This document shows, piece by piece, positions 1 through 8,501 of a stretch of 8,501 nt of DNA (its first letter is position 1; each line of letters begins with the position of its first letter). The notes beneath the pieces were generated by a model. The model saw nothing but the letters and a program-made list of their open reading frames with translations, ran no database searches and was not told where the DNA came from. This DNA is from Gammaproteobacteria bacterium (lineage in GTDB: Bacteria > Pseudomonadota > Gammaproteobacteria > Acidithiobacillales > Acidithiobacillaceae). The DNA is taken from NCBI GenBank assembly GCA_023381645.1, contig JAMCRJ010000034.1:1-8501 (forward strand), written 5' to 3'. The position numbers were made by a program, and so were the translations under genes.

Positions 1-247
1 GCCGGGGCACAGGCTCTCTCGGAGCGACGCTGTGCTGCCGCGACAGATCGGGAGAACGTACGCCCGGCAATAGCACCAAGCGGTCAAGCGTTCTGTGGTG
101 GATGACATAACGTCTGTACATGGCGCATCTCTCTGAAATGGTGTACTCCATACTCCCTAACGCCGCAATATACCGGGAAATCATGATACGCTGCTGAGGT
201 TATGTTCACTGAGGTCGCTCACACGAACAAGCCAAAAGGACTGGATT
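1..247. other. Left-edge non-coding stretch
   Basis: I see no supportable gene here. Two + strand frames are open from the window edge (frame 1 to a TGA at 103, frame 2 to a TAG at 70), so the 3' end of a gene could enter from the left, but neither translation resembles anything I know. The last part, 236-240, is AAGGA and serves as the ribosome-binding site of the small ORF at 248. Confidence 0.4.
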
Positions 248-388
248 ATGGCGATGGCCGAGTCTGCCGGCCCACCCGCAGCCGTAGGCGCTGCCTCAAA
301 ATCTGTCCGACCGCGTACCAAAACAAACGCGTCTGTTGGGGGAGTGTCACTTTTCGACCAAGAAAAGGACCCCGCCAGTGTGCCATAA
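248..388 (+). CDS. Small ORF (46 aa), probable IS accessory leader
   Basis: An ATG at 248 is preceded by AAGGA at 236-240 with a 7-nt spacer, a good ribosome-binding arrangement, and the frame runs 46 codons to TAA at 386-388. The product is Ala/Pro/Ser-rich, begins MAMAESAGPPAAVG and ends SLFDQEKDPASVP, with no membrane segment or domain I recognise. Its end overlaps by 11 nt a GTG at 378 that opens the next frame, so the two could be translationally coupled, as is common for paired ORFs inside insertion sequences. I infer it is the first ORF of a mostly lost IS. It could equally be a chance ORF. It is shorter than a typical gene-prediction cut-off. Confidence 0.35.
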   Translation: MAMAESAGPPAAVGAASKSVRPRTKTNASVGGVSLFDQEKDPASVP

Positions 389-486
389 CCTTCTGCAGGA
401 CCCCAAAATATTTCAGTGGTTGTACCACGTGGATGAAGTCCTTGCCGAAGAAGCCAGGACCACCCGGTGTGCCTGTGGTGGGAAGT
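378..486 (+). pseudogene. Zinc-ribbon transposase-like fragment (5' end only)
   Basis: From a GTG at 378, overlapping the preceding small ORF, the frame encodes about 36 residues that look like real protein: LLQDPKIFQWLYHVDEVLA followed by RCACGGKWHYA. The C-x-C-G-G-x-x-H run is typical of the first half of zinc ribbons near the N-terminus of several transposase-associated proteins, where the usual continuation is a basic YPRKPRG-like stretch. Here the continuation is lost: at about 480-490 the sequence changes to the frame of a different (rve) transposase. I read this as a truncated IS gene joined to another fragment. The protein family is from memory and not certain. Confidence 0.35.
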
Positions 487-1067
487 GGCATTACGCCGCT
501 GGTGATCACCACGCTGACCACCCAATACCGGGAACATCCGGGCTGGACAGCCCAGTTGCACTACGACAATCTGCAGGCCGTCCTGCAGGGGCAGGGCGTG
601 ACGCTTCCGTCCTACCCGACGATCCGTCGCTATCTCCAGGCGCAGGGACTGTTCCGTCAGGCGCGACCGAAGCGCGCCACCGCCGGTGCGATCGCCGCCC
701 GTGATCATCTGGAACGGCTGGAAGTGCGCAGCTATGAGGTAGAACAGACCGCCGCCCTCTGGCATCTGGATTTCCATCATGGCTCCCGCCAGGTGTTGAC
801 CCGTGCGGGCACCTGGGAGACGCCCATGCTGCTGGGGATCATCGACGATCACTCGCGGCTGCTCTGCCACCTGCAATGGTATCTGGACGAAACCGCCGAG
901 AGTCTCATCCACGGCCTCTGCCAGGCCTTCATGAAGCGCGGCCTGCCACGGGCGCTGATGACGGACAATGGTGCCGCCATGGTGGCCGAGGAAACCACCA
1001 ACGGGCTGGCCCTGCTGGGGGTGCTGCATCAGACGACACTGCCTTATAGGCCGTACCAGAATGGTGG
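487..1067 (+). pseudogene. rve/DDE transposase, truncated at both ends
   Basis: The frame encodes an integrase-core transposase. It opens with ITPLVITTLTTQYREHPGW (from 490), a winged-helix-like segment (LPSYPTIRRYLQAQGLFR), then the catalytic core. The first catalytic Asp is in WHLDFHHGS (codon at 769-771) and the second in LMTDNGAAM (codon at 964-966). The terminal block LPYRPYQNG is normally followed within a few residues by the catalytic Glu (KQE), but here the sequence changes at about 1064-1070, exactly where the remnant hicB gene begins on the other strand. The DDE triad is therefore incomplete and the N-terminal DNA-binding part is missing or replaced upstream of about 487. The frame stays open to 1218 only as antisense of hicB. 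The product cannot be an active transposase. I cannot assign the IS family with confidence. Confidence 0.75.
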
Positions 1068-1434
1068 CCAAAAAGCCGACCGGCTGGGTCCTCGGGTTCT
1101 GGACGCCTCGTCAATACGGCGAATCAGATTGCGCGGCAGGGTGATGTTGACCTTCTCCGTCTTGCCTTCCACGCGAGACACATCCACTTCCACGGCCGCC
1201 CAGGCGCCGTCCGCATAATCCGGGTCGGCTTGATACTCGACCAACGAACGCGGCTCCGGGAGGGGTGTGCCCTCTTCGGCCATGCCTTCCAGGTGTAGAT
1301 CAATGGCTTCGCGGACGCTGTCCAGCGCCTCATCCAGCGTATCGCCTGCGGAAAAGCAGCCCGGCAATCCGGGTACGGTGACGCCATAGCGCACGCACAC
1401 CGTCATCAGTATGGAGCACGACGGAGAATTTCAT
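1068..1434 (-). pseudogene. hicB: hicB-type antitoxin remnant, frameshifted and 3'-truncated
   Basis: Reading from ATG at 1432-1434 gives MKFSVVLHTDDGVR. A +1 frame change then gives YGVTVPGLPGCFSAGDTLDEALDSVREAI and later a NITLP...IDEASRTRGPSRSAF segment. This is the HicB layout: an N-terminal partial-RNase-H-like antitoxin domain, then a ribbon-helix-helix-type DNA-binding end. The two frames meet at a tandem GCAC GCAC (1391-1398), so a 4-bp duplication explains the shift. The C-terminus stops matching at about 1068-1073, where the transposase fragment starts. One T added to the run at 1070-1074 would extend it to SAFLA, the usual HicB ending. No hicA toxin is visible: only 43 bp separate this gene from the next one upstream. 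A shortened product could start at an internal ATG (1406), but it would lack the first strand. HicB family assignment is strong; functional status is poor. Confidence 0.75.
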
Positions 1435-1477
1435 GATGACCGCCAACCAGGCTGCATTATTAGACACGAACTCCGTA

Positions 1478-2383
1478 TCAAGGGTGATGTTGCCCGCCAA
1501 GCCCGCCCGCATGGGCCAATACCTGACGTTTCCGCCCTCTATTTAGCCGTGCCGGGCGGATTACGCGGCGCACTGTCGGACGACGAACTACCGGATGAAA
1601 CCGTTGTGGTTGAACCGGGTGATAGATTGGGCGCGGGCGCGCTATGGGTCGTCGCACGAAAGGCCGGGCCGGCAGGCGGCGCACAGGTGGGTGGAAAACG
1701 GGACTTGCGCCCTGTCGAAATCCTGGCCTGAATACTGGACGAACCACGGGGTGGATTACCCGGCCCCGCATCACCGGCCCGGCAATCCGCCGAACTGGAT
1801 ACGGGCGGCGGAATATCGGGCGCATGGGTCCGCGATAAAACGGCCTGCCCCGGTACCTTGGGATCACTTGTGCCCGCCAGACCCGGTAATGGTCCAGGTC
1901 CATACGATGCCGAAACCACCATGCGGGATGGTTCACCTGATACCATGGCGCCACCCAGGCACGCCACCAGACGAAGTAGGGATGGTAGGGAACCATCGGC
2001 GGTGGCGGCCCGTATTCGAGCGGCAACGGCAAAACGCTGTACGGAGGCAACGGATACCATGGGCCAATGTAATCCGTACTGTACAGCCAGCCATTGCCGG
2101 CCCAGTCGTAATAAAACCCATCATAGGCATAAATAAAGCTGGAGGCCGTGGGCAGGTAGTAGGCGTTGACGCCATCGCCGACGGAAAACGCGAAGTTGAT
2201 TTGCGCGGAGGCGGCGGGAGTGAAAAATGCCCAAGTTCCACAGAGCAGCAGAAACCAAAGCAATGGCGCCGGAGCGATCAGCGCCAGACGGCGCTTCATG
2301 GTGGGCAAGGCGGGCTTCATCGCCGCCATCCCCATCCCCGCCATGACCATCAGAAAACGCCGATAGCGTCTAACGAAACGCAT
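1478..2383 (-). CDS. Exported Trp/Tyr/Pro/Arg-rich protein of unknown function
   Basis: This is an about 301-residue protein. I chose ATG 2383 (second of an ATG-ATG pair) because GAGAGG lies 6 nt upstream; the frame is open further to 2491, and an ATG at 2299 (MKRRLALIAPAPLLWFLLL) would give a conventional signal peptide. Either way a basic N-terminus is followed by a hydrophobic core and an AASA-Q cleavage-like site, so export to the periplasm or cell surface is likely. The mature part starts with an aromatic section (YAYDGFYYDWAGNGWLYS, then IGPWYPLPPY) resembling uncharacterised secreted proteins with a GPWY-type block. It continues into about 120 residues dominated by Arg, Pro, Val and His (for example RRLPARPFVRRPIARPR). 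The strongly basic, low-complexity tail may bind polyanions or the envelope; this is inference. The opposite strand is also open for 406 codons, but only this strand has a ribosome-binding site and signal peptide. Confidence 0.6.
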   Translation of the reverse strand: MRFVRRYRRFLMVMAGMGMAAMKPALPTMKRRLALIAPAPLLWFLLLCGTWAFFTPAASAQINFAFSVGDGVNAYYLPTASSFIYAYDGFYYDWAGNGWLYSTDYIGPWYPLPPYSVLPLPLEYGPPPPMVPYHPYFVWWRAWVAPWYQVNHPAWWFRHRMDLDHYRVWRAQVIPRYRGRPFYRGPMRPIFRRPYPVRRIAGPVMRGRVIHPVVRPVFRPGFRQGASPVFHPPVRRLPARPFVRRPIARPRPIYHPVQPQRFHPVVRRPTVRRVIRPARLNRGRKRQVLAHAGGLGGQHHP

Positions 2384-2617
2384 CATGTACCTCTCAGCCT
2401 GATTGCGGGGATCAACCCTGTTGAGTTTGGACACGGGCTTCCAGCACATGTTCACACGCCCGCGACGACGATCTCTCTTGCTGAAAATCAATCCTGTATT
2501 CGCCCGTGCTGCCTATACGATGGCGAGGCCCTTGATTTGGTCATGGTCGCCGTGCTGTTGTCCAATCGCGTAGGGGCGGATATATCATGTCTTCATGACG
2601 CGCCAGCCTTTCTTATT
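2384..2617. other. Intergenic region upstream of the exported-protein gene
   Basis: This holds the ribosome-binding site (- strand GAGAGG, about 2390-2395) and presumably the promoter of the exported-protein gene, but I see no convincing -35/-10 pair. No other gene is supportable. Confidence 0.4.
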
Positions 2618-2858
2618 TTACACAGGCAGGTGCGGATCACAGTCAACCAGAACCTGATTTGTGTGATGCTCCCGTTCAGCAGCAAGCCTGCCGGGTGCAA
2701 GCCCTTTGCAGGGTGCAAGCCCATCAGGATGCGAAATGGTCCCTTCTTTCATGAAAATGTTCAGGTTGTTCTTGGTGGCGAAGTGCAGCAACTCCGCATA
2801 GGCTTCTGGATGTGACTGCTCGAGTGCTTCATCAAAGATGATGGACACGCAACCTTCG
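2618..2858 (-). pseudogene. Possible 3' fragment of an unknown gene
   Basis: A - strand frame ends at 2618 and reads through residues such as DEALEQSHPEAYAELLHFA and NNLNIFMKEGTISHPDGLAP. The acidic, amphipathic look suggests genuine coding sequence. Its open frame extends to 2950, but upstream of about 2860 it is simply antisense to the istB remnant, so the real gene, if any, was cut there. I do not recognise the family. A 12-bp direct repeat inside it gives a GLAPCKGLAP repeat in the protein. The opposite strand is also open, so this call is weak. Confidence 0.25.
2693..2722. repeat. 12-bp direct repeat GGGTGCAAGCCC (two copies)
   Basis: GGGTGCAAGCCC occurs at 2693-2704 and 2711-2722, separated by 6 bp (TTTGCA). 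The 18-bp period preserves reading frame on both strands. It looks like a slippage duplication. Confidence 0.7.
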
Positions 2859-3152
2859 ATGGTTGCCAAAGTGACGCTACTGATCATAGACGACTTCGGA
2901 CGCAAACCCATGCGCCCGCCCCATGATGAAGATTTACACGATCTGATCACCGAACGCTACGAGCGGGTCTCTACCATGCTGACCAGCAATCTCGACTTCG
3001 CCGAGTAGAGGGACGTCTTCCCGGCCAACCGCATGCTCGGAGTGGCCACCCTGGATCGGCTACGCCACGGCGCCTATCGACTGATCCTGGAAGGCGATAG
3101 TTTTCGCGCCCCCAGACCGCTCCCGGAATCTCCCAAAAACACCCATTCTTAA
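2859..3152 (+). pseudogene. istB: istB remnant of a second IS21-family element, with in-frame TAG
   Basis: The frame encodes the C-terminal half of an IstB ATPase. It has the Walker B region LLIIDDFGRKPMRPPHDEDL (Asp-Asp codons at 2889-2894), then ITERYERVSTMLTSNLDFAE, a TAG at 3006-3008 where the family has Trp, then the terminal NRMLGVATLDRLRHGAYRLI and GDSFRAP block, ending TAA at 3150-3152. The Walker A motif should lie about 180 bp upstream and is absent, so the gene is 5'-truncated at about 2860. It belongs to a different IstB subgroup from the intact copy at 3630-4388 (LDDWGLAPM versus IDDFGRKPM) and lies on the opposite strand, so it is an independent older insertion. No istA is left in the window for it. 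Confidence 0.85.
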
Positions 3153-3391
3153 CACCGTTCGAGACCCCATTTCAGGCACTTTGAAATGACGTCATTACGC
3201 CGCACATCGGTGGCGCTATATTGCCGGTCAGTGACAGAAGGTCCTGGTTTTTCAGCTTCATGAACAATGTTAAACTTTGCATGTCGATTATGTGACATTA
3301 TTTATGTACTTTAGCGTCATTATAAAATTTCATAGTGGCAATTTATCAACGGGAATAAATGCCGCAGTATACCCATTCAATAGAGGTAATA
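3153..3391. other. AT-rich intergenic stretch between istB remnant and permease 3' end
   Basis: No gene is supportable. It should contain the lost end of the older IS21-type element. A possible end is the CA at 3234-3235 in GGTCAGTGACA, but I cannot find its partner. A perfect 12-bp palindrome AATGACGTCATT lies at 3185-3196. Towards 3391 the sequence becomes AT-rich like the permease locus. The + strand frame at 3277-3708 is antisense to the permease tail and IS end, not a gene. Confidence 0.45.
3337..3363 (-). terminator. Weak candidate terminator hairpin after the permease
   Basis: On the - strand GGCATTTAT and ATAAATTGCC can pair with one bulged base around an 8-nt loop, starting about 30 nt after the permease TGA. 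The stem is AT-rich and is not followed by a clear T-run, so the call is weak. Confidence 0.2.
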
Positions 3392-3535
3392 TCAAGCACA
3401 CTTCACAGGAATATTTTTTAATGTTCCAACGTCTTTACACATATCATGACATTCCTTATCCAGGGAGCAACATAGGGAACATATTGGACCGTCATACGCA
3501 GGACAACATGCCATATCTTCTTTTTCATATTCGAA
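3392..3535 (-). pseudogene. Detached Cys-rich C-terminal end of the NCS1 permease
   Basis: These 47 codons plus TGA are the 3' end of the permease gene, cut off by the IS21-family element. The reading frame resumes exactly at the target duplication: TTC GAA (Phe-Glu) followed by YEKEDMACCPAYDGPICSLC and CSLDKECHDMCK, ending KCA. It carries 8 of the 10 cysteines of the restored tail. The other two (CVSC) stay on the 5' part. The same kind of motif (EDMAxCPAYxGxICSLCCSLD) is, from my memory of the family, found at the end of the permease domain in NCS1-histidine kinase fusion proteins. Here the gene ends right after it. The fragment lies downstream of istB on the same strand, and an internal ATG at 3514 could start a 40-residue peptide, but it lacks a good ribosome-binding site. 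Probably not functional by itself. Confidence 0.85.
3530..3535. repeat. Target-site duplication TTCGAA, left copy
   Basis: TTCGAA directly flanks the TG end of the element at 3536 and is repeated exactly at 6196-6201. The sequence is itself palindromic. Permease codons Phe-Glu are encoded by each copy. Confidence 0.9.
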
Positions 3536-3549
3536 TGCGCATTCCGGCG

Positions 3550-3581
3550 ATCGTGGGCAGTGATTCCGCTGATCGTGGGCA
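3550..3581 (+). repeat. IS21 terminal repeats, istB-side end
   Basis: Two ATCGTGGGCA copies start at 3550 and 3572 (22-bp period), next to the terminal TGCGCATTCCGG. In IS21 elements such repeated terminal motifs are where IstA binds. Confidence 0.75.
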
Positions 3582-3629
3582 CCCCCGAAAAGCGTACATT
3601 CTGGTCACCGCCATTTTATCCCCAGGTGG

Positions 3630-4388
3630 TCACGATGCGTCAACTTTTGGGGTGTCGCGTCCATCACTGCGACGACGCAGGGAGTCCCCCTTCAGCTCCA
3701 GTCGGTGAGCACTCTGCAGCAGTCGGTCCAGTACCGCATCGGCCACGGTAGGCTCGCCCAGATATTCGTGCCAATGATTCACCGGGAGCTGGCTGGTAAC
3801 CAGCGTGGCCCTTTGGTTCACCCGGTCATCGATGATTTCCAGCAGGTCTCGAACATCCTCGGCATTCATAGGGGCAAGCCCCCAATCGTCCAGTATGAGT
3901 AGATCGACCTTGGCCAACGTGGTGAGATAACGCCCGAAGCTGCCGTCACCGTGACGAATCCGGAGTTCTTCAAACAGGCGGGGCAAGCGCAGATACCGCA
4001 CGCTCAATCCCTGACGGCAGGCCTGATGACCCAGGGCACAGCCCAGCCAGGTTTTGCCGGTGCCGGTGGCGCCAGTAATCAGCAGATTATGGCCTTGCCG
4101 AATCCAGGTGTTCTGGATCAGTGCCATCACCTTGGATCGGTCCAGTCCACGGGAGCCGCGATAGTCGATATCCTCCACACAGGCATTCTGCTTGAGATGG
4201 GCGAGCTTCAGCAGGCGCGTTAGACGGCGTTGATCCCGGGCACAGAGTTCTCGGTCCAGGAGCAGTCCCAGACGCTCATCGAAGGAGAGATCCTGGATCT
4301 GTGTGAGACGAGATTGTTCGTCCAGAGCCTCAGCCATGGCGTGGAGATTGAGCTGACGCAGCGCGTTCAGAGTGGGTTGTTGTAACAT
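3630..4388 (-). CDS. istB: IstB, AAA+ ATPase transposition helper
   Basis: This is the 252-residue partner of the IstA transposase. IstB proteins form ATP-dependent oligomers on target DNA and stimulate strand transfer by IstA. The sequence shows an N-terminal helical region (1-95), Walker A GATGTGKT (106-113), Walker B LLILDD (163-168) followed by WGLAPM, a sensor-like LVTSQLP (about 196-202), and the C-terminal AVLDRLLQSAHRLELKGDSL block. Length and motif order match complete family members. I chose ATG 4388, with AGGAAG about 10 nt upstream; the frame also has an in-frame TTG at 4409 that overlaps the istA stop, so termination-reinitiation is plausible and would add 7 residues. It lies immediately after istA and is probably translated from the same message. 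Acts in the cytoplasm on DNA. Confidence 0.93.
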   Translation of the reverse strand: MLQQPTLNALRQLNLHAMAEALDEQSRLTQIQDLSFDERLGLLLDRELCARDQRRLTRLLKLAHLKQNACVEDIDYRGSRGLDRSKVMALIQNTWIRQGHNLLITGATGTGKTWLGCALGHQACRQGLSVRYLRLPRLFEELRIRHGDGSFGRYLTTLAKVDLLILDDWGLAPMNAEDVRDLLEIIDDRVNQRATLVTSQLPVNHWHEYLGEPTVADAVLDRLLQSAHRLELKGDSLRRRSDGRDTPKVDAS

Positions 4389-4405
4389 GCGATTTTTCTT
4401 CCTGT

Positions 4406-5947
4406 TCAATGGTAGTAGCGGGGTCCGCGGATATTGTCGTGGGCGGGTAGCGGGGCCGCCTTTTGCGGTGTCTCCGTGACCTGATCCAGTCCCTGCTGCA
4501 GGATGGATTTGACGCTGTTGGTGGTGGGAGACCCCACTTTAAATGCCCGGAGGCAGGCGGTATTCAGGCGATCTTTGCCATAGCTGCGGGAGAGGCTGAG
4601 CAAGCCCAGACAGGAGCGGTAACCTTGCTCGGGATGGGGTTTGCTCTCCAACTGCCAGCGCACCACATCCCGGGTCGCAGGGCCGATGGAGAGCGCCCAG
4701 TTCAGTAACCGTCCAGGAGTCCATTCGCTATGCCGCTGATGGGCCTTGGGCATGTGTTCCGTGAGCGTGCTGTAGCGGCCCTGGCTGTCCTCGCGCAGAT
4801 GGCTGGCCACCCGTTGCTGCTGATGGAATATTTCTACGGTTCGGGCGCTGACCAGCAGATCGATCCGCTCATGGGCCAGACGGTAAGGGACCGAGTAACG
4901 ATGCCGGTTATACTCCACGTGGTAGTCGATGCTGACCTTGGCGGTTTTCCAGACGGCAAAGACATAATCCTGCGCCGGCAGGGGTTTTAGGGCGGGTCTA
5001 TCCAAAGCCTCGAAGGTGCTTTTACGGCTGCCGGGTAGCTGCTTGAAGGGGCGCTGATTCAGATCCTCCAGCAGGCGGCGGATCTCCCTGTTGAGTTCCA
5101 TCAGCGAGAAGAACTGGAAGTGGCGTAGACGCGCCAGAATCCAGCGCTCCACCACTTGCACGCCGACCTCGACCTTCGCCTTGTCTTTGGGTTTATAGGG
5201 GCGTGTCGGAAGCACCACGGCCCCGTAATGGCTGGCCAGATCCTGATAACTGCGGTTGATTTCGGGTTCGTATCGGGAGGCCTTGGTGACCGCCGCCTTG
5301 AGGTTGTCGGGGACCAGCAGGACGGGTGCGCCGCCAAAGTACCGCAGGGCACGCACATGGGACCCCAGGAAGTCGCTGAGGCTCTGGCTCCAGGTGGCCT
5401 CGCAATAGGTATAGCTGGAAGCCCCCAGAACGGCTACAAAGATCTGGGACTGGCGAATCTCGCCGGTGCCAGGGTCAATGACCGGCACCATGGGGCCGGC
5501 GTAATCAATAAAGAGTTTGTCACCGGCCAAATGGTTCTGGCGCATGCTGCGTTTTAGGCGGCCTTTCCAGGCCCGATAGTGGGTGCAGAACTGGGAATAC
5601 TGATAGACGCGCTGTTCGTCATGCGCTGCTACATACTCTTCCCATAAAAGTTGCAGAGTCATCCCCTTGCGCCGCATCTCCGTGTGGATGGCCGCAAAAT
5701 CCGGCATCACTGGCGCCGTCACGGTGGCGGACCGATGGCTGGGAAAAAGCAGTGCTTCCAGTTTTGCCGGGTCCATTTCGGGAGGCAAAGGCCAAGAGAT
5801 ACTGGCCTGTTCGGCCTTCTGCAAATATTTGCCAACCGCTCCCTTAGAAAGACGGCAGGCCTGCGCAATTTGCCGCTGGCTGAGGCCTGCAGCATGTAAA
5901 CGGATTACTTCTTGAATTGCCTTCATGGTCATCCTCGGTGTGGGCAT
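4406..5947 (-). CDS. istA: IstA, DDE transposase of the IS21 family
   Basis: This is a 513-residue transposase that recognises the element ends and catalyses strand cleavage and joining. An N-terminal helix-turn-helix (about 9-45, AAGLSQRQIAQACRLSKGAV) is followed by a linker and the rve catalytic core with Asp148 (LFIDYAG), Asp214 (LVPDNLKAAV) and Glu260 (KAKVEVGV), an intact DDE triad. The C-terminal part (about 330-440) includes the VSIDYHVEYNRHRYSVPY beta-rich segment usual in IstA. ATG 5947 is chosen because AGGAGA sits about 6 nt upstream and the HTH starts just after it; the longer open frame to 6037 lacks support. The stop overlaps the alternative TTG start of istB. Transcription must start within the 248-bp leader, among the ATCGTGGGCA repeats, so IstA binding there could repress its own promoter; that is inference. 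Confidence 0.94.
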   Translation of the reverse strand: MPTPRMTMKAIQEVIRLHAAGLSQRQIAQACRLSKGAVGKYLQKAEQASISWPLPPEMDPAKLEALLFPSHRSATVTAPVMPDFAAIHTEMRRKGMTLQLLWEEYVAAHDEQRVYQYSQFCTHYRAWKGRLKRSMRQNHLAGDKLFIDYAGPMVPVIDPGTGEIRQSQIFVAVLGASSYTYCEATWSQSLSDFLGSHVRALRYFGGAPVLLVPDNLKAAVTKASRYEPEINRSYQDLASHYGAVVLPTRPYKPKDKAKVEVGVQVVERWILARLRHFQFFSLMELNREIRRLLEDLNQRPFKQLPGSRKSTFEALDRPALKPLPAQDYVFAVWKTAKVSIDYHVEYNRHRYSVPYRLAHERIDLLVSARTVEIFHQQQRVASHLREDSQGRYSTLTEHMPKAHQRHSEWTPGRLLNWALSIGPATRDVVRWQLESKPHPEQGYRSCLGLLSLSRSYGKDRLNTACLRAFKVGSPTTNSVKSILQQGLDQVTETPQKAAPLPAHDNIRGPRYYH

Positions 5948-6195
5948 CCTGGATCTCCTGTAAAAAGAGCCAAGGATGCTGTTTAACCCAATGAATGACC
6001 AGAATGTTTTCTTTTCGCCAAGGGGAAACCGGGACAACGTTCCGGCATCGTGGGCAGTGATTCCGCCATCGTGGGCACCGATTCCGGAAAATCCACAAAA
6101 GTGCCCACGATCAATCGTAATGGCTGCCCACGATCATTCAGAATCACTGCCCACGATCAAACGGAATGGGTGCCCACGATGCCCCGGAATACGCA
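5948..6195 (-). promoter_or_regulatory. istAB leader and complex transposase-binding end
   Basis: This 248-bp stretch has no gene. It holds six ATCGTGGGCA motifs: four in outer-end orientation (as the + strand complement TGCCCACGAT at 6102-6111, 6125-6134, 6148-6157 and 6171-6180) and two oppositely oriented ones (6047-6056, 6068-6077). The istA ribosome-binding site is at about 5954-5959. The istA promoter should be here, but I cannot name a clear -35/-10 pair. Confidence 0.6.
6047..6157. repeat. Long imperfect inverted repeat inside the IS leader
   Basis: The 17-mer ATCGTGGGCAGTGATTC at 6047-6063 is matched by its exact reverse complement at 6141-6157. The same sequence, extended to 20 bp as ATCGTGGGCAGTGATTCCGC, is present at the other end of the element (3550-3569) and at 6047-6066. 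The transcript could fold into a large hairpin ahead of istA. Confidence 0.8.
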
Positions 6196-7716
6196 TTCGA
6201 AACCACAGCTCACGCAAGTAAGTACATCGTGGTGTGTGCCCGCGTGATAGTGCGGATCTCTCGCAATGTAGTATTTTCCCTTCGTCATGATGGCTATTAT
6301 CGGTGAAAGCGTAAACGCAAGAAATAAGGCAATAAAAGCGCTGAATGACTCACCCCAGGGACCGAATGCCCCAAAGAAGGCAGCCACCGACACAATAGAG
6401 GCAATGACCATCGCACCGAAACCTACAGGATTAAAGTTGTAGAGATGAGCTCTCTTGAACTCAATATAAGATGGGCTCAACTTAAGAAGAGGTTTGTTAA
6501 TCACCAAGTCTGCAACAATGGCTCCAATCCAGGCGACAGCAACGTTTGAATAAAATCCGAGGATGGTACCCAGAACCGAGAACATATTGCCTTCCATCAA
6601 GGCGAGGGCTATACCTACGTTGAGGAAAATGTAGATCACTCGTCCAGGATGGCGATGGGTCAGGCGCGAGAAAAAGTTAGACCACGAAAGTGATCCGGAG
6701 TAAGCGTTGGTCACATTGATTTTGATTTGTGACATAAAGATAAAAATAGCGGCTAGAATCAGTGCTGCTGCCGGGAATGCATATCCAAAACCTGTAATAT
6801 ACATATGAATTGGTTCATTGGCCTTGGCAAGGGGGGTTCCGTGTGTTGCGGCAATAGATGACAGAAAAGAGCCCATAAGCTGCTTCGTGGCACCAAGAAC
6901 GACCCAACCAGGACCAGCGGCTAGGACGGCAAACCACCACTTCCACTTCTTTGCTGGTTTAATCTTCGGCATAAAACGAAGATAATCCGCTTGCTCGCCG
7001 ATTTGCGCAATAAGTGAAAGGGCAATTCCGGCAGCGCTTCCCCAAAGCAATGGGTCGAACCCTGCGCCGCTAGGAGACTTGCCACCGAAATGAATCCACG
7101 TAGCGACAGTCTGAGGATCTTTGATCAGTATTGCCGCGATAGGGATAATGAACAGACTGATCCAAATCGGATTTGTCCATTTTTGAACTGCTGACAGCGC
7201 CGTCATGCCGAATACCACTAAAGGTATAATAATCAGTGATGAAATAATATAGGATATGGCGATTGGTATACCAAAGAAAAGCGTAAACGCCTGGGACATT
7301 ACGGATCCCTCAAGCGCGAAGAATATGAAAGTAAACGAGGCATATATCACGGATGTTATCGTTGACCCAAGATACCCGAAGCCAGCACCGCGGGTCAGAA
7401 GATCAACATCCACATTATATTTTGACGAATAGTAGGCTATGGGAATGCCTGTTAGAAATATAATAATTGCAGCCGTAAAAATGCCAAAAAAAGCATTTGT
7501 AAAACCATACTGGATGGCAAGCGAACCACCAATGGCAAGATCTGCCATATAGGCAATACTACCCAGCGCCGCCATCGCGACTCCGTATTCTGACCACTTG
7601 CGAAATCCAGAAGGTGCGTAACGTAACGAATAATCTTCAAGAACTGGGTTATTTACAAACCCGCTAAATAGTCGCTTGGCTATTTTTTCAGTGCCCCTTC
7701 TTACTTCTGCAACCAT
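6157..7716 (-). CDS. NCS1-family permease, 3' end replaced by IS sequence
   Basis: This inner-membrane transporter of the nucleobase:cation symporter-1 family imports nucleobases or related compounds with a cation; the substrate cannot be told here. ATG 7716 has a perfect AAGGAG 8 nt upstream. Residues 27-50 (LEDYSLRYAPSGFRKWSEYG) are the typical NCS1 entry, followed by about 12 hydrophobic segments between 45 and 480, including GAGFGYLGS (110-118) and the loop with NVTNAYSGSLSW (334-345). Residues 1-505 are native, ending HHDVLTCVSCG. TTCGAA then encodes Phe-Glu, and 12 foreign residues from the IS follow to a stop at 6157. The native continuation is at 3392-3535; joined, the protein is 552 residues. 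The membrane domain is whole, so a shortened transporter might be made, but it lacks the Cys-rich tail. Third positions are richer in A/T than in flanking genes. A GntR regulator precedes it by 169 bp. Confidence 0.88.
   Translation of the reverse strand: MVAEVRRGTEKIAKRLFSGFVNNPVLEDYSLRYAPSGFRKWSEYGVAMAALGSIAYMADLAIGGSLAIQYGFTNAFFGIFTAAIIIFLTGIPIAYYSSKYNVDVDLLTRGAGFGYLGSTITSVIYASFTFIFFALEGSVMSQAFTLFFGIPIAISYIISSLIIIPLVVFGMTALSAVQKWTNPIWISLFIIPIAAILIKDPQTVATWIHFGGKSPSGAGFDPLLWGSAAGIALSLIAQIGEQADYLRFMPKIKPAKKWKWWFAVLAAGPGWVVLGATKQLMGSFLSSIAATHGTPLAKANEPIHMYITGFGYAFPAAALILAAIFIFMSQIKINVTNAYSGSLSWSNFFSRLTHRHPGRVIYIFLNVGIALALMEGNMFSVLGTILGFYSNVAVAWIGAIVADLVINKPLLKLSPSYIEFKRAHLYNFNPVGFGAMVIASIVSVAAFFGAFGPWGESFSAFIALFLAFTLSPIIAIMTKGKYYIARDPHYHAGTHHDVLTCVSCGFECVFRGIVGTHSV
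6196..6201. repeat. Target-site duplication TTCGAA, right copy
   Basis: Exact copy of 3530-3535, directly outside the CA end of the element at 6194-6195. Confidence 0.9.
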
Positions 7717-7722
7717 GATATT

Positions 7723-7729
7723 TCTCCTT
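7723..7729 (-). promoter_or_regulatory. Strong ribosome-binding site of the permease
   Basis: On the - strand AAGGAGA precedes ATG 7716 by 6 nt. This decides the start against the longer open frame to 7788. Confidence 0.85.
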
Positions 7730-7833
7730 AAATGTCGCTGTTCATCCGGTTGACCACGACCAGCCACAAGACTGGTATATAGGCTCATTGAAATTTATGT
7801 ATTATGCTTCACCTCATTTTCTTGATTTTTCGC

Positions 7834-7871
7834 AGGTGTAAAAATGTGATTTATATCCCGCACTTTTACCT
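7834..7871. promoter_or_regulatory. Imperfect inverted repeat, candidate operator
   Basis: AGGTGTAAAAATGTG (7834-7848) faces CGCACTTTTACCT (7859-7871), whose complement is AGGTAAAAGTGCG. The arms share AGGT...AAAA...GTG with small indels, around an AT-rich centre. It lies between the regulator stop (7886) and the permease start (7716), a sensible place for a GntR-family operator. A terminator for the regulator gene is an alternative, but there is no T-run after it. Confidence 0.35.
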
Positions 7872-7885
7872 ATTGTTCGCGTCCG

Positions 7886-8501
7886 TTAGATGTTACTTTT
7901 TTCGAGGCGGGCTTCGTAAAGCATGCTCAGGGTGATCTTGCGCACTTCAAGGCGACTAGCATCGATGTGCGATCTCAGGAGTCGCTGCGCTTCACCGATG
8001 CGGCCGCGATGAATTTGTTCGAGAATCGCGGCATGTTCTTCATAGGTCGCGGAAACTCTTTGTGGCTTGGTGAAGTCCAGTCGGCGAATAATGCGCAACC
8101 GTTCCATGACGTCGTGATGAATACGCCATATTTCTGGATTTCCCCCTGCCGCCACCAACCCGGCATGGAAATCCTCATCCAGCATCCAGACGGTCTTCGC
8201 ATTGCTTTCCCGCAAATCCGGCGGACAACACCAGGCCTGCATTAAAGCTCCGATACTTGGCACCTTGTCCTTACGCGACAGACGCTGTAGGGAAGATTCT
8301 TCCAGAAGGATTCGCACTTCGTAGATTTGATGGAATTTCTCGAAGTCCAGTGGTCGTACCTGCCAACCCATTCTGGGCAAGACGCTTACGTATCCTTCAC
8401 GCTGTAGGCGGAAGAGCGCTTCACGTACCGGAGTGCGGCTCACCTCCATGCGTGCGGCAATCTCGTTTTCGCTGAAATGATCGCCCGGCAGCAGGCGGAA
8501 A
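7886..8501 (-). CDS. GntR-family (FadR/FCD type) transcriptional regulator, 5' end outside window
   Basis: This is a DNA-binding regulator missing its N-terminus beyond the right edge. The visible part starts FRLLPGDHFSENEIAARM, the second half of the GntR winged helix, then EVSRTPVREALFRLQREGYV (recognition helix) and GWQVRPL (wing). The rest is an FCD effector domain: YEVRILLEESSL, WMLDEDFHAGLVAAGGN, IIRRLDFTKP, TYEEHAAILEQIHRG and LLRSHIDASRLEV. The Asp/His in DEDFH and the His residues in EEH and RSHI are at the places where FCD domains bind a metal ion and an organic-acid-like ligand. The frame is open to 8501 without interruption; an internal ATG at 8449 would cut the HTH and is not the start. 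It is upstream of, and co-oriented with, the permease, so the permease gene is a likely target. The ligand is unknown. Confidence 0.9.
   Translation of the reverse strand, partial: FRLLPGDHFSENEIAARMEVSRTPVREALFRLQREGYVSVLPRMGWQVRPLDFEKFHQIYEVRILLEESSLQRLSRKDKVPSIGALMQAWCCPPDLRESNAKTVWMLDEDFHAGLVAAGGNPEIWRIHHDVMERLRIIRRLDFTKPQRVSATYEEHAAILEQIHRGRIGEAQRLLRSHIDASRLEVRKITLSMLYEARLEKSNI

Follow-up and report, generated by a model that had tools for sequence, protein, structure and literature searches.

Insertion of an IS21-family element into an NCS1-like transporter gene of Acidithiobacillus and severing of its conserved cysteine module

Insertion sequences (ISs) of the IS21 family are characterized by inverted ends reading 5'-TG...CA-3', several terminal repeats, and short direct target duplications of 4–8 bp. 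Acidithiobacillus is a genus used in biomining. A survey of Acidithiobacillus ISs reports IS21 elements in several species of the genus (PMC10214660). Because the word "permease" is absent from its main text, that survey gives no account of the present insertion in those terms. We analyzed a window of 8,501 nucleotides (assembly GCA_023381645.1, contig JAMCRJ010000034.1, positions 1 to 8,501) from a member of the Acidithiobacillaceae, and the host is an Acidithiobacillus closely related to both A. ferrivorans and A. ferruginosus. In the window, an IS21-family element has transposed into the gene of an NCS1-like transporter, between codons 505 and 508, with duplication of 6 bp of the target, TTCGAA. 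We assign a probability of about 0.9 to this reading, i.e., insertion of the element and severing of a conserved cysteine (Cys) module.

When the element and one TTCGAA were removed by a script, a frame of 552 codons was restored from the ATG at 7716 to the stop at 3392, in which Gly505 is followed by Phe-Glu-Tyr-Glu. The joined frame aligned without gaps over 1659 of 1659 nt with the loci of A. ferrivorans DSM 22755 (L004, 96.26% identity) and A. ferruginosus CF3 (L005, 96.38%). In both loci, the site is empty and reads exactly GGT TTC GAA TAT GAA, with a single in-frame TTCGAA. The gene is uninterrupted at the insertion point, and the permease is contiguous with its Cys-rich tail, in all eight loci compared (seven named Acidithiobacillus and the metagenome-assembled genome (MAG) YP4.bin20 from the same genus set); in the other six, the site reads TTTGAA or TTTGAG. 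The nearest proteins among the best 120 of 5578 matches, P0001 and P0002, have 552 residues and 92% identity. The permease has a match in 8 of the 17 genomes of the genus, with one copy in each of the two nearest genomes. The initial annotation of this DNA had claimed the limits of the element and of the two TTCGAA copies (Table 1), the restored frame with its junction and its end, an exact target duplication, intact istA and istB genes, and no decay in either half of the permease. All of these were reproduced: TTCGAA matches on both sides and is single in the two empty sites, both IS genes score above the NCBIfam cut-offs, and neither half has a frameshift or a stop.

Table 1. Coordinates of the features in the 8,501-nucleotide window
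Feature	Position	Strand	Basis or remark
IS21-family element of 2660 bp, both genes on the minus strand	3536..6195	-	NCBIfam and end repeats
istA transposase, maximal open frame with TTG as the listed start	4406..6037	-	NF033546, PF00665 rve, PF22483
istB helper ATPase (AAA+), maximal open frame	3630..4409	-	NF038214, PF01695
Two left-end terminal repeats, ATTCCGnnGATCGTGGGCA type, 22 bp apart	3541..3581	+	
Right-end terminal-type repeat cluster	6040..6181	.	Two in left-end orientation, four inverted
Right TTCGAA target-site duplication copy	6196..6201	.	Flank comparison
Left TTCGAA target-site duplication copy	3530..3535	.	In frame encodes Phe506-Glu507
Permease 5' part, codons 1–505, 1515 bases	6202..7716	-	Junction at Gly505
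Truncated open frame as it stands, 519 aa	6157..7716	-	Stop at 6157
Severed permease 3' part, residues 506–552 and stop	3392..3535	-	Carries Asp512 and Cys524-Ser-Leu-Cys527
GntR/FCD regulator	7886..8500	-	Cut by window edge; upstream of permease, same strand
Second, different IS21 remnant, IstB-like	2865..3236		In-frame stop 3006–3008

The element begins with TGCGCATTCCGG... and terminates with ...CCGGAATACGCA. IstA scored 315.4 bits against NF033546 (cut-off 160) and contains the integrase (DDE) core, and IstB scored 262.9 bits against NF038214 (cut-off 200). There are no internal stops in either gene, and their maximal frames overlap at 4406–4409 with istB downstream. The features of the IS21 family, namely an IstA DDE core, istB, TG...CA ends with repeats, and a short target duplication, are all present. 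Within the genus, the element is widespread: 15 of the 17 genomes have a match at E ≤ 0.001, mostly partial. Full or near-full copies were found in genomes G003 (94.7%), G001 (97% over 2599 bp), G016 (89%), and G017 (two at 77%). Individual copies have identities of 94.7% over 2660 bp (locus L058), 97.1% over 2599 bp (L099), and 89.4% with 65 gap positions (L103). In the assembly of A. ferrivorans DSM 22755, many contigs terminate within copies of the element, and one such contig end is located approximately 3.4 kb downstream of the intact permease (L004 6560–6678).

TTCGAA is a palindrome, and a mechanical search returned an 18-nt inverted repeat that takes in TTCGAA at both sides. The hexamer might be read as part of the element's own inverted repeat, in which case there would be no true target-site duplication. 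However, other copies have identical terminal IS bases beside differing flanks; therefore, the palindrome is assigned to the target DNA. In A. ferrivorans DSM 22755, the copy of equal length (L058) has TTCAC as its flanks, and a copy in another genome (L103) has ACAGCG. Two ends located 6 kb apart on one contig (L104/L113) have GATAAA in common and look like one copy split by other DNA. Matching flanks were also observed across separate contigs, CTTACG (L093/L092) and CCTAAA (L101/L099), where we infer the pairing of the ends. Three other copies and two end pairs across contigs thus carry duplications of their own, of 5–6 bp, and for several more ends, the assembly contains a single flank. Moreover, the empty sites of L004 and L005 hold one TTCGAA. 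Inclusion of the hexamer in the inverted repeat is contradicted by the flanks of the other copies and was rejected; we consider that it has hardly any probability.

Because L004 and L005 lack the insertion at this site, the comparison supports an insertion that is younger than the split of the window lineage from these two relatives (~4% DNA difference). The earlier description of the event as recent stands to this extent, both relatives being ~96% identical; beyond that, the age is only bounded. The alternative is an old insertion, with the locus being a decaying pseudogene in a graveyard of mobile elements. At 3237, the sequence that leads toward a porin in the relatives is replaced by another IS21 remnant and a patchwork of fragments, as might be expected of such a graveyard. 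However, the 6-bp duplication is perfect, istA and istB are open, and the two halves of the permease are free of stops and frameshifts. The lineage-unique codon changes (silent + replacing) in the tail are 1+1 in the window, 2+1 in L004, and 1+1 in L005, and those in the body are 26+6, 17+4, and 14+6, respectively. The tail changes resemble those of the intact relatives, and no relaxation seems visible in either half, although the short tail makes the test weak and it cannot date the event. An old insertion is therefore very unlikely.

The severed tail holds the second half of a CxxC...CSLC module (C501xxC504 and C524xxC527). All four cysteines of this module are unchanged across the 54 relatives that were aligned. 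The tail motif is retained in 118 of the 120 best homologues (of 5578 matches). The two homologues without the motif are P0056, which is termed "partial" by its source and stops within the tail, and P0011, which has 482 residues. P0011 stops just short of the Cys-rich tail; this may be due to the edge of its contig, or the protein may be another example without a tail. In the predicted model, the last membrane helix ends at residue 477, i.e., the predicted membrane region is left whole by the insertion. The Cys module is modeled as four short strands with a ten-residue mean predicted local distance difference test score (pLDDT) of 50–65, and weak Zn-ribbon Pfam matches were found in single members of the relatives. 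The tail would be a putative metal-binding module, probably for zinc. An orphan Cys-rich tail, starting from approximately residue 500 and lacking a permease body, was observed in A. ferrianus (L123, ~1501–1660). It is placed between frames that resemble, by eye, a porin and an aminotransferase, and its DNA is 81% identical to the A. ferrivorans-type tail and 74% identical to that of A. ferrianus' own intact permease.

The transporter was initially named an NCS1 permease; transporters of the NCS1 (nucleobase-cation-symport-1) family take up nucleobase-like substrates coupled to cations. This name holds at the level of the fold but not by Pfam or NCBIfam. PF02133 did not match the window protein or P0002 at the gathering score, P0002 had no match in NCBIfam or Pfam, and only 2 of the 54 relatives matched PF02133 at E up to 10 (best 8.3e-8). 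A search of the PDB by sequence profile gave no match at E up to 1; therefore, the family was tested by fold. The predicted structure of P0002 matched CodB and Mhp1 best, ahead of other LeuT-fold transporters. Because the LeuT-type fold is nearest to CodB and Mhp1 while PF02133 matches neither the window protein nor P0002, we refer to the permease as "NCS1-like", a branch that is divergent in sequence.

The genes near the intact relatives encode urea carboxylase, urease UreC and UreG, formamidases FmdA and AmiF, aliphatic amidase AmiE, biuret amidohydrolase, and BBP2-type porins. Because many relatives adjoin urea carboxylase, urease, formamidase, and amidase genes, the substrate is probably urea or a short amide. 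The full-length enzyme in L001 scored 1894 bits against the urea carboxylase model (cut-off 1304). This model may not separate urea carboxylase from guanidine carboxylase, and guanidine is also a possible substrate. Further downstream of the intact permease of A. ferruginosus (L126, 7571–11999), there are FolD-like, glutamate-synthase-like, and type III glutamine-synthetase-like genes. This gene set fits the expectation for a nitrogen-assimilation cluster.

As it stands, the permease frame has 519 codons from the ATG at 7716, or 543 with an upstream ATG. The C-terminus of the 519-residue product consists of Phe-Glu from the right TTCGAA and 12 IS-derived codons. The product would retain the whole membrane part and lose Asp512 and the second cysteine pair; therefore, the metal-binding tail, probably for zinc, could not form. 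The transporter would then most likely be unstable, incorrectly regulated, or nonfunctional, which would abolish or diminish the cell's uptake of urea or short amides via this protein. Loss or weakening of function is thus the most likely outcome of the truncation, and loss of transport itself is rather probable. Alternatively, the truncated permease may be active, with the tail serving regulation or signaling, so that control would be changed rather than transport. The intact predicted membrane region is consistent with this possibility, as are the body changes (26 silent and 6 replacing codons), which show no visible relaxation. However, the latter may only reflect a young insertion, and the near-universal tail motif indicates that working variants without the tail are uncommon.

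The same Cys module joins a transporter to a histidine kinase in Acinetobacter, as expected of a coupling or sensing part. In L013 (2294–5785, minus strand), a permease paralogue is joined via this module to a hybrid histidine kinase, and the kinase-fused paralogue is encoded near a stand-alone permease in Acinetobacter genomes. A strict pattern detected the fusion also in L018, L023, L025, and L029; it misses the fused L013, and thus the count of at least 4 of 56 loci is a lower bound. Of the 56 related loci, 19, all from Acinetobacter, contain a gene resembling the kinase portion of the L013 protein. We regard an active permease with altered control as the less probable outcome. In a broader proposal, the Cys tail would be a general sensing and coupling module of a family of urea/amide NCS1-like transceptors, placed at the transporter's C-terminus in some members and connected to a histidine kinase in others, and the IS would have produced a tail-less, uncoupled transporter, not a dead one. 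If this were true, the insertion would be a ready-made test of the role of the module; we consider this proposal unlikely.

Several observations weigh against the main reading of an insertion that severed the module and most likely impaired urea or amide uptake. All of the membrane body is present and might still carry out transport. Confidence in the predicted tail is low (ten-residue mean pLDDT 44–65). The age of the insertion is only bounded, and the left flank of the L099 copy of the element is unlike its right flank. At least one urea/amide enzyme-like gene was found in 26 of the 56 related loci (tblastn, E 1e-15, up to ~6 kb on each side), a count that has no control set of random loci and for which the probes can match related enzymes, such as other biotin carboxylases and other amidases. 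The remaining 30 loci had no such enzyme match in the DNA examined, several of them on short contigs.

The 5' part of the permease has 96% DNA identity to L004 and L005 and 92% protein identity to P0002 (A. ferridurans). A similar GntR/FCD regulator precedes the permease in L001, L003, L004, and L005. In L003 (MAG YP4.bin20), identity to the window is 92% for the regulator region but only 75% for the permease (3455–4204 versus 5648–7123), and a porin gene separates the two. This mosaic locus suggests recombination. On the other side, the 3' end of the permease leads into a porin gene in the relatives, which the window follows only to 3237 (3237–3535, 93.3% identity to L004 and 92.3% to L005). 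In the adjacent IstB-like remnant, 2871–3005 is above and 3009–3149 is below the Pfam cut-off, with the stop between them. Stretches like this remnant, with nearly the same limits, are found in other genomes of the genus. The locus has thus been struck at least twice by IS21-type elements. The rest of the window (1–2864) is a patchwork, whose pieces have sharp boundaries near 288/322, 491, 1066, 1458, 1809, 2340, and 2865 and match scattered places within the genus. It includes a transposase piece with an integrase core (best NCBIfam match IS481, below the cut-off) and a HicB-like antitoxin gene.

Disruption of a gene by an IS is an ordinary kind of event; more interesting is the overlooked tail module that came to light along with it. 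The locus provides a base-exact example of IS gene disruption in an acidophile genus, with two natural empty sites. It also highlights a widespread transporter family that the copies of Pfam and NCBIfam used here leave unnamed. The family is often located in urea/amide clusters, and annotation would miss its near-universal cysteine module; the 519-residue frame would seem normal to an annotation program even though it lacks the severed part of the module. In the titles and abstract openings of the papers among the matches listed on Acidithiobacillus IS21, IS21 target duplication, NCS1/urea transporters, and STAC sensor kinases, no description of the insertion or of the Cys tail of the family was found.

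Compared with described IS21 elements, the element has the same istA (DDE/rve), istB (AAA+), TG...CA ends, multiple terminal repeats, and short duplication. Among the best 15 of 4357 plasmid records, its nearest named relatives by IstA protein identity are the ISPsy40 (54.7%) and ISPre4 (53.8%) families, and Marinobacter elements without names reach 58.4%; relative to these, it belongs to its own Acidithiobacillus lineage. The whole window matched the plasmid collection only through short IstA stretches in three Burkholderia records. SLC5/STAC sensor kinases such as CbrA and CrbS likewise combine a transporter, a small linker, and a hybrid histidine kinase in one chain, as do the Acinetobacter paralogues. 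In contrast to CbrA and CrbS, the transporter part of these paralogues is NCS1-like and the linker is the Cys module, whereas the window protein has no kinase. The NCS1 transporters CodB and Mhp1 share the fold of the window family with 14–16% identity in the structural alignment, but the window family has the additional C-terminal CxxC...CSLC tail, and urea/amide genes are located near many of its members.
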